The notes beneath the pieces were generated by a model. That model had not been told where the DNA came from. It ran no database searches and saw only the letters and a list, made by a program, of their open reading frames with translations. Below are positions 16,493 through 23,172 of a stretch of DNA of 24,475 bases, piece after piece (within the stretch, counting starts at the first letter, position 1; each line of letters opens with the position of its first letter). The position numbers and the translations under genes were made by a program. Origin of the DNA: a virus; the IMG/VR virus record IMGVR_UViG_3300038450_000041, positions 1 through 24,475 of that record; one strand, given 5' to 3'.

Positions 16493-17683
16493 TCACCATC
16501 CTATCATCTGTCTGTCGGAAATCTTTGGGCCAAAGCCCCTCCGGGAATAGATGGACGCCGCTGAAACGGCCAAATAAGATGAAACCCCGTAAGCGTTATG
16601 CGCCCCTGTTCCACTGCCGCTTGTCGGGGCATAATTAAACCCAAGACCCGGCTTTCCCGATGTAAAAGGCCCATATCCGCCCGTGCCCGTATCCTGCACG
16701 CTTCCGATCTGTACGCCGTTTTTGGCGGCGTATATGGTGTTTGTGCTGTCGATCCAGGCGGTTATCACGTCCCCGTCTACGACGCCATACTCGGCGTTGT
16801 TGGTAAGGTCCAGGAGAACATTGAAGCCGGGACTTGCCGTCAGGCCGTTCCACCGGACAATCGTCATGTAGCTGCTTGCCCCCTGGCCGACGCTGAAAGC
16901 AATCTCATAGCCGTAAATATTCGTGGAAGTATTGGTCATTATGAGATGTAGTTCAACTTCGGGCCAATCTGTGCCGTAGGTCGCGCCCGGAATGCTTACC
17001 TGCGCCTGAACGAACTGGGGGACCGACCATAACCCGTTTGCAAGGGTTGCGACTGCATCATTTGTGTTGGAAGGCGGGTTATTTATGCCGTAGCAAAATC
17101 CCCCGGAAGTCGCTAGATTTGTGCTGCCCGCGACAGCGTTTGTCCAGTTCCCGGACTCGGAGACAGGGTTCTCGGTCAGGGGAAATGAAGTCGAGTAGTC
17201 ATTGGGAACCGCGATCTTTACTCCAAAGGCCATAGCGCCGCCGTCAGAAACCGAAGGCAGCGTGGATGGAGGAAAGGACGAGTAGGTTTCCGACGTATAC
17301 CAGCCGTTTACAGGATTAGTCGCGACAGATGATCCCGCCATGGAGATGTTCGTATTGTCGCAGTTACATCCTATGTAGTAGGCGCCGGCCGCCACGCTGA
17401 CGCTGATTGCAGCTTCTTCCCAGGTCATTGTGGAAATATTTGAGGAAAGGGTTATCGTCCCGGTCGAACCGGCCACCAGGTTTTTAGAGCTGTTATACAG
17501 GGCCAGTTTAACGTGCATCGTGGAGGCGCTGTTGTTAAGCATCATGAGGCCGATTGCGCTTATCGCGCAGGCGGGAAGGGCTATGGCCGTCAAAATAAGG
17601 AGATTATTGTTCCCGGTTCCGTTGTTGGCGGTAAACGACGCCGGCGGGGCGTTCCCGCCGTATACATAAAAAGGTGTGCTCAT
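16493..17683 (-). CDS. Lectin-like phage surface protein, 396 aa
   Basis: The protein is beta-rich. Residues 1-150 contain strands such as MHVKLALYNSSKNLVAGSTG and WEEAAISVSVAAGAYYIGC, a carbohydrate-binding-like sandwich. From ~165 a concanavalin-type domain is suggested (WPEVELHLIMTNTSTNIYGY, VDGDVITAWIDSTNTIYAAK). It begins immediately after the SpeD homologue (stop and start abut as TAAATG). Probable role: host-surface or environmental-glycan binding on the particle. No enzymatic motif is visible. Confidence 0.7.
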   Translation of the reverse strand: MSTPFYVYGGNAPPASFTANNGTGNNNLLILTAIALPACAISAIGLMMLNNSASTMHVKLALYNSSKNLVAGSTGTITLSSNISTMTWEEAAISVSVAAGAYYIGCNCDNTNISMAGSSVATNPVNGWYTSETYSSFPPSTLPSVSDGGAMAFGVKIAVPNDYSTSFPLTENPVSESGNWTNAVAGSTNLATSGGFCYGINNPPSNTNDAVATLANGLWSVPQFVQAQVSIPGATYGTDWPEVELHLIMTNTSTNIYGYEIAFSVGQGASSYMTIVRWNGLTASPGFNVLLDLTNNAEYGVVDGDVITAWIDSTNTIYAAKNGVQIGSVQDTGTGGYGPFTSGKPGLGFNYAPTSGSGTGAHNAYGVSSYLAVSAASIYSRRGFGPKISDRQMIGW

Positions 17684-21971: not shown

Positions 21972-22282
21972 GGATTGAGGCAGGGAATCGAACCCTGCAT
22001 GATGTGGCCTTCTGAGCCTCTGCACCTTACCGTTTATGAGAGTTTAGGGCTTCTTTTGTCCGCCATTCTCGCTTTTACGAGTTAGCTTGCGGTCTTCCCC
22101 GCTAGGCTATTTATGGTAATTCGGGTTTATTCAACCCCTGGCCCTTTCGGTCATGCCACCAGACTTTCGCCTTCCGCTTATTACTCTCCGGCAATACAGA
22201 CCATTGACACTCACATTCGGGCGAGCCCTCACCCGTCCACCTTCTTTCAGTACCAGCGTCTACCCCTTCCGCCACTCAATCC
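21972..22282 (-). ncRNA. Structured RNA with tRNA-Leu-like ends and a ~220-nt interior
   Basis: The 5' end GGATTGAG-TGGCGG-AAGGGGTAGA-CGC has the class II (Leu) D-arm, including T8, A14 and GG. The 3' end has GCAGGG-TTCGATT-CCCTGC (T-arm) and CTCAATCC. The first and last 8 bases pair perfectly, 11 bp counting flanking ACT/AGT. Between D-arm and T-arm are ~255 bases with many local stems: 22235-22218 (GGGC loop), 22196-22179, AGGC-GAAA-GUCU at 22172-22161, a second GAAA hairpin near 22150-22143, GGGTT/AACCC 22137-22123, UAGC..GCUA around GCGG/CCGC 22109-22083, and CUCGU-AAAA-GCGAG 22081-22068. Candidates are an intron-split tRNA or a new tRNA-like RNA. Confidence 0.6.
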
Positions 22283-22304
22283 AGTCAAATCAAATACCCT
22301 ATTA

Positions 22305-22379
22305 GCCAGCTTCGCCAACTCGGGGCGTAATCCCAAGCTGGCAGTTCAAGGCCCCTGGCGGGGTGCGGCATCAGGGGCC
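22305..22379 (-). other. Two strong hairpins upstream of the tRNA-like RNA
   Basis: GCCAGCTT/AAGCTGGC (22305-22312 with 22335-22342) and GGCCCCTG/CAGGGGCC (22350-22357 with 22372-22379) are perfect 8-bp inverted repeats lying side by side. Neither is followed by a U-run on either strand. Together with the RNA element they make a 0.5 kb RNA-only block between the RHH gene and the lysis-like cluster. Confidence 0.6.
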
Positions 22380-22438
22380 ACCAGAAAGGAGGATGAGTTG
22401 AGCGTTCGTGAGTATTGCAACAGACTAATGAAGTGATG

Positions 22439-22857: not shown

Positions 22858-23172
22858 ATGGAAAAGAAAAGACCTTCAAAAAAAGCGTACTTCAAGACCC
22901 ATCACAACATCATAGATTCGAATAACTTCCGAAGCCTTACTTACTCTTCCCAAATCTTGTACTTCCATCTCACCCGCCTTCAAAACTGGTACTGCAACGG
23001 TAAACCAGGCACCTTCACACAACGGGATTGGCAACTAATTAATGAAACGGGGCTGGAACCACGAACAATTAAACGGTCGAGAAAGCAGCTTAAAGAAAGA
23101 GGTCTCATTGATACAAACAGGCAAGGGCCAAAAGGACCGACCGCTTACACCATCTTGCCACCCACTGAGTGA
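22858..23172 (+). CDS. Winged-helix DNA-binding protein, 104 aa
   Basis: NNFRSLTYSSQILYFHLTRL (helix 1), GTFTQRDWQLINETGLEPRT (helix-turn-helix) and IKRSRKQLKERGLIDTNRQG then PTAYTIL (recognition helix and wing) match winged-helix domains used by phage replication-initiation and regulatory proteins. The N-terminus is very basic (EKKRPSKKAYFKTHH). The ATG follows AGGAGG closely. It is the only non-mobile plus-strand gene, so it probably belongs to a different expression class. GTGACA repeats begin at its stop codon and may be its binding sites. Confidence 0.7.
   Translation: MEKKRPSKKAYFKTHHNIIDSNNFRSLTYSSQILYFHLTRLQNWYCNGKPGTFTQRDWQLINETGLEPRTIKRSRKQLKERGLIDTNRQGPKGPTAYTILPPTE

Follow-up and report, generated by a model that had tools for sequence, protein, structure and literature searches.

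A tRNA-Leu-ended RNA in an uncultivated phage as a putative noncoding RNA built on a tRNA head

The stretch of DNA analysed here (the window) is a 24,475-base IMG/VR virus record (IMGVR_UViG_3300038450_000041, positions 1-24,475). It carries an RNA element with the ends of a tRNA-Leu on the minus strand (22282..21972), the strand on which most of the likely genes of the window are also found. The parts of the element and neighbouring features are listed in Table 1. One flank of the RNA is formed by a short gene for 61 aa and on the other flank genes run toward the lysis region, where a 252-aa protein is encoded; a distant phage match of this protein carries the annotation cysteine protease/amidase. 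A 104-aa reading frame (22858-23172, plus strand) lies on the strand opposite to most genes and resembles in sequence a helix-turn-helix replication or regulatory protein. Directly upstream of the RNA, within 22290-22400, there are two G+C-rich hairpins (GGCCCCTG..CAGGGGCC and GCCAGCTT..AAGCTGGC). Near the RNA, promoter and terminator matches did not rise above chance.

Table 1. Positions of the tRNA-Leu-ended RNA, its parts and neighbouring features in the window.
Feature	Position	Strand	Remark
Whole tRNA-Leu-ended RNA	21972..22282	-	311 nt
Acceptor stem, 5' strand GGATTGAG	22275..22282	-	perfect pairing with 21979-21972
U8, G9 and tRNA-Leu-type D-arm TGGCGGAAGGGGTAGACGC	22256..22274	-	profile score 23.6 bits, next best site 3.9 bits
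Hairpin CGGGTGA/TCGCCCG	22218..22235	-	prediction only; mean pair probability 0.95
Interior in place of anticodon and variable arms	21999..22255	-	257 nt; no Rfam family, no convincing anticodon stem
Long-range 18-bp bulged helix, 5' strand	22183..22200	-	prediction only; partner 22043-22019, pair probability 0.91-0.98
Long-range bulged helix, 3' strand	22019..22043	-	prediction only
R-like motif AAGGTGCAGAGGCTC	22014..22028	-	probable chance resemblance
T-arm GCAGGG-TTCGATT-CCCTGC	21980..21998	-	sequence read directly
Acceptor stem, 3' strand CTCAATCC	21972..21979	-	pairs with 22282-22275
61-aa gene	22624-22439		look of a ribbon-helix-helix regulator, by eye; one flank of the RNA
Candidate spanin	19160-18603		weak spanin match

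Read from 22282 to 21972, the element consists of GGATTGAG, TG, GCGGAAGGGGTAGACGC, the interior, GCAGGG-TTCGATT-CCCTGC and CTCAATCC, followed by an A (21971) which would be the discriminator base if the acceptor is counted as 8 bp. All eight pairs of the terminal stem GGATTGAG/CTCAATCC are perfect and the flanking CTG/CAG extend it to 11 bp. In the T-arm, a 6-bp stem (GCAGGG/CCCTGC) closes the loop TTCGATT. The D-arm agrees with canonical tRNA numbering (U8, A14, G18, and G19) and has all fixed positions of the tRNA-Leu motif TGGCGNAANNGGTAGACGC, which occurs once in the window when both strands are searched. A profile built from 44 tRNA-Leu D-arms of other phages was run over both strands of the window and scored this site highest (Table 1). 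Across this phage and six related contigs, a shell search (acceptor, D-signature and T-arm) identified this element alone, and zero such shells were identified in 5.16 Mb of shuffled sequence, both strands included. The tRNA-Leu-like shell at 22282..21972 certainly exists, and the Leu-type D-arm, canonical T-arm and perfect 8-bp (11 bp with flanks) terminal stem described in the first-pass annotation are confirmed by direct reading, profile and shuffles. The acceptor and T stems together form a stack of 13-14 bp instead of 12, as had also been described, with one extra pair on the 3' side between acceptor and T-stem, which would speak against ordinary delivery by EF-Tu. Bacterial tRNA-Sec, which has a similar 8+5 bp stack, was rejected as a candidate because its D-arm differs.

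In the interior, further best-predicted hairpins are found at 22137-22123, 22109-22083, and 22081-22068, next to the hairpin and the long-range helix of Table 1. The minimum-energy fold of the whole RNA has a z-score of about -2.7 to -2.9, with equally good folding in 8 of the 152 other 311-nt segments of the same contig, and the interior on its own is unexceptional (z -1.6). The at least seven local stems reported earlier do appear in the predictions, but these values support them weakly. The free energy minimum opens the D-stem in favour of a GTGGC/GCCAC pairing, and retention of the D-stem costs 2.2 kcal/mol.

A second phage, of 49.7 kb, has the RNA without a single difference in the 341 bases compared. 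Its sequence is 98.5-99.8% identical to the window over the compared parts, bar a replaced stretch at ~16.5-17.6 kb. Compared with L002, positions 16493-17650 of the window have 78% identity or none between otherwise near-identical phages, and the sequences suggest that a tail or receptor-binding module may have been swapped. No ordinary tRNA gene was found in the sister-phage record. The sister phage also has a second degenerate tRNA-like element, with T-arm GCAAG-TTCGAAT-CTTGC and an imperfect acceptor, at a place not covered by the window (L150:5739-5645, minus strand, record G009). Diverged homologues of the RNA were looked for by blastn in phages and plasmids, in IMG/VR with patterns (R-like motif plus T-arm, D-arm plus 5' interior, D-arm-to-T-arm spacing, and a middle interior motif), in the GTDB species-representative genomes, and in relatives found via the head protein, a 135-aa neighbour and the 252-aa lysis-region protein; near-identical copies alone were recovered. 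The sequence of one relative (G001, head protein 83% identical) stops before the region, and the element is absent from another (G002). In every copy found both halves lie in one unit and in normal order, which gives no support to the 'split tRNA' proposed at first.

The IMG/VR search on D-arm/T-arm spacing, aimed at homologues, also brought in contigs with other tRNA shells. With canonical tRNAs, group I introns and two-gene spans left out, 56 (about 55) distinct shells longer than 95 nt and without an anticodon arm were counted in 39 viral contigs, a count that is approximate as the anticodon-arm test was a simple pattern. A Leu-type D-arm is present in 33 of these shells, including the window RNA and one residual two-element span (273 nt, L012). 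Shuffled controls contained no such shells. Many shells have common AGTCAGGTGGCGGAATGGTAGACGC...ACAGGTTCGAATCCTGTCCTGACTA ends and quite different interiors, with several shells per contig. Such tRNA-Leu shells with unrelated interiors of 50-140 nt were seen in L012, L018, L024, L052, L055, L056, L094, L105, L108, L111, L122, and others, and a hairpin (TTGACAGCTTGGAAAGACAAGCAA) precedes several of them. The entire common shell was found in no isolate phage, and its 5' half is present in four MAG contigs. After the window RNA, the longest shells are 268 nt (L027, from 3595 on the minus strand in reverse-complement coordinates, tRNA-ended with a non-Leu head) and 218 nt (L158/L159). A 153-nt pair in L036 and L055 differs by 32 substitutions, with nine compensatory, four one-sided and no broken pairs in a consensus fold built on these two sequences themselves, and this comparison supports a structured RNA. 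This 153-nt tRNA-ended RNA (GGYTCTATAGC...AGAGCYA) is located from 4129 in L036 and from 2089 in L055, both on the plus strand, and is also found in L125 and L126. In the shells of L011, L019, L044, L069, L101, and L104, a 7-bp hairpin (GGTTAGGGG..CCCCTGACGTGGTAGACGC) is inserted into the D-loop and shows compensatory changes. Rfam searches of the scanned contigs recognized some shells as weak tRNAs and placed none in another family. The window RNA and the other shells have the tRNA head in common, not the interior.

Three explanations had been offered for the element: a degenerate intron-bearing tRNA, a tmRNA-like derivative or an undescribed phage RNA. The acceptor stem, a D-arm of tRNA-Leu consensus and the T-arm of a functional tRNA-Leu are present; an anticodon arm and a long variable arm were not found, and ARAGORN calls no gene. 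Positions 201-284 of the RNA (the 84 nt that precede the T-stem) contain no full 5-bp partner in register for the expected anticodon strand, in line with the earlier remark that the anticodon stem closes poorly. In the one shifted pairing, GTACT with GGTGC, two of the pairs are G-U and U33 is lacking. The R-like motif is a real resemblance to the R element of tRNA-Leu group I introns, starting at 22028 and not at 22027 as first given. Seven genuine tRNA introns, from phage contigs identified in the same searches, served to build P, Q, R, and S profiles. Of 2000 shuffles, 414 reached the highest P score of the window, 772 its highest Q score and 1270 its highest S score, in agreement with the earlier observation that no S element follows the motif. 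Its R score was reached by 43 of 2000 shuffles, or 26 of 2000 after an eighth intron (L088, GTGCAGAG) had been added, and is below the scores of the real introns. The 15 nt from the end of the R-like motif to the T-stem are too few for P3', P8, and S. The predicted fold pairs the motif with TCTGTAT (22200-22194), and the resemblance is probably fortuitous. RF00028 gave no match to the window RNA at E 10; the control intron records L088, L049, and L029 scored 70.1, 58.9, and 37.2 bits. A group I intron in normal order, and with it the group I version of the degenerate intron-bearing tRNA, is rejected on the absence of P, Q, and S, the weak R, the 15-nt gap, the silent RF00028 and the lack of a convincing anticodon stem. 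Inspection by eye also argued against a permuted group I intron with the R-like motif last, as P and Q are lacking in both orders, and against a group II domain V, for which no convincing hairpin was seen. It is improbable that the element is a tRNA-Leu gene with a non-group-I intron of unknown type that is spliced to a working tRNA. Such a gene would have the complete tRNA-Leu head seen here, and the same search found real group I introns in tRNA-Leu genes of other phages, but the lack of an anticodon-strand partner beyond the shifted pairing and the absence of P, Q, S, and an RF00028 match count against it.

Still less credence can be given to a tmRNA-like RNA, in which a tRNA-like domain would be combined with a coding or pseudoknot body. 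The RNA resembles a tmRNA in its size, in its T-arm end and in the GTGGC/GCCAC pairing by which the D-stem is opened, the interior contains TAATAA, and L006, a phage sharing one gene, has a permuted tmRNA. Against this, no tmRNA match was obtained in Rfam, even at E 10, or by ARAGORN, the third acceptor pair is A-U and not G3-U70, the frame closed by TAATAA ends in ..VCIAGE, with neither an ALAA-like end nor another recognisable tag, and a full tRNA-Leu D-arm is present, whereas tmRNA has no D-stem. The permuted form of tmRNA was likewise rejected. The checks proposed in the first-pass annotation (Rfam with group I and tmRNA models, ARAGORN) thus yielded no Rfam family and no ARAGORN gene for the RNA, and the conclusion that it is neither a group I intron nor a tmRNA is well supported. 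The permuted tmRNA of L006 (5128-5499, plus strand; RF04321, 70.5 bits), a phage related via one lysis-region protein, has a long spacing of ~190 nt between its two pieces; permuted tmRNAs are already known in phages (PMC9004378). The main rival explanation is a tRNA-Leu gene broken by an insertion, leaving a pseudogene remnant with a functionless interior. We consider this unlikely. An interior without homologue and with unexceptional folding, and the absence of the element from G002, are consistent with a remnant, but all diagnostic positions of acceptor, D-arm, and T-arm are intact, which is unexpected in a decaying gene, the sister phage offers no ordinary tRNA as ancestor, and many like shells occur elsewhere.

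On balance, the element is probably a stable and functional noncoding RNA of the phage, processed like a tRNA and built on a tRNA-Leu head. An undescribed phage RNA is the one of the three explanations offered that is supported. In favour of a stable RNA on a tRNA head we counted the exclusion of group I intron and tmRNA, the intact Leu-type D-arm with perfect acceptor and T-arm, the identical RNA in a second phage without an ordinary tRNA gene in its record, the ~55 shells in 39 contigs, the compensatory pairs of L036/L055 and the T-arm of T4 rnaC. Counted against it were the lack of a diverged homologue, the interior z-score of -1.6, the D-stem opened in the free minimum, the lack of a promoter or terminator match above chance and the finding that the other shells have in common with it the tRNA head and not the interior. 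A functional RNA of this kind would have kept the acceptor stem, U8, D-arm, and T-arm and exchanged the anticodon and variable arms for the 257-nt interior. By established tRNA biology, host RNase P would cut the transcript, the 3' end would be trimmed and CCA would be added as for a tRNA. The shell may in this way provide maturation and protection from exonucleases, and function may reside in the interior, which as a regulator or decoy would bind a protein or RNA. The leucyl-tRNA synthetase of E. coli does not need the anticodon, and charging with leucine could therefore be possible.

More tentatively, the window RNA may be the largest member seen of an extensive and so far undescribed RNA class of uncultivated phages, in which a tRNA head, mostly of tRNA-Leu type, would carry different structured payloads, sometimes in arrays of near-identical shells with different interiors, the payload of the window RNA having its target in the host or the virus. 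If so, the tRNA head would supply prefabricated 5' and 3' ends, the phages' independent version of engineered tRNA scaffolds, and many 'bad tRNAs' that are missed or misnamed by tRNA finders would become testable noncoding genes, in the company of T4 RNAC. The preference for tRNA-Leu, whose synthetase is able to ignore the anticodon, would suggest a tie to leucylation or to tRNA-targeting host defences. No description of such a wider class was found in the part of the non-preprint literature covered.

Among known systems, tRNA-Leu group I introns (RF00028; L026, L029, L049, and L074) resemble the window RNA in the long insert in a tRNA-Leu and the R-like motif; the window RNA differs in having no P, Q, and S, no room for P3'/P8/S and no flanking anticodon stem. 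tmRNAs (RF00023 and RF04321) likewise have tRNA-like ends flanking a long interior and no anticodon, whereas the window RNA keeps the D-arm and is without G3-U70, a typical tag end and a covariance-model match. The shells of uncultivated phages (e.g., L012, L122, L158, and L036/L055) share the acceptor, D-arm, and T-arm and the lack of an anticodon arm, but are mostly 98-169 nt long, nearly all have a 12-bp acceptor/T stack, and their interiors are unrelated. Phage T4 encodes rnaC and rnaD beside its tRNAs. T4 RNAC is a late stable RNA of unknown function that was shown by northern blot (PMC9697503). The rnaC sequence (species 1 RNA, 139 nt) folds strongly (z -4.6) and has a perfect T-arm at its end, a long non-tRNA interior and no anticodon. 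In contrast to the window RNA, it has no Leu-type D-arm, its terminal stem is imperfect and it lies in a tRNA cluster, and there is no sequence homology between the two. Both are phage RNAs with tRNA-like ends and without an anticodon arm, and T4 rnaC is the closest characterised relative in kind.
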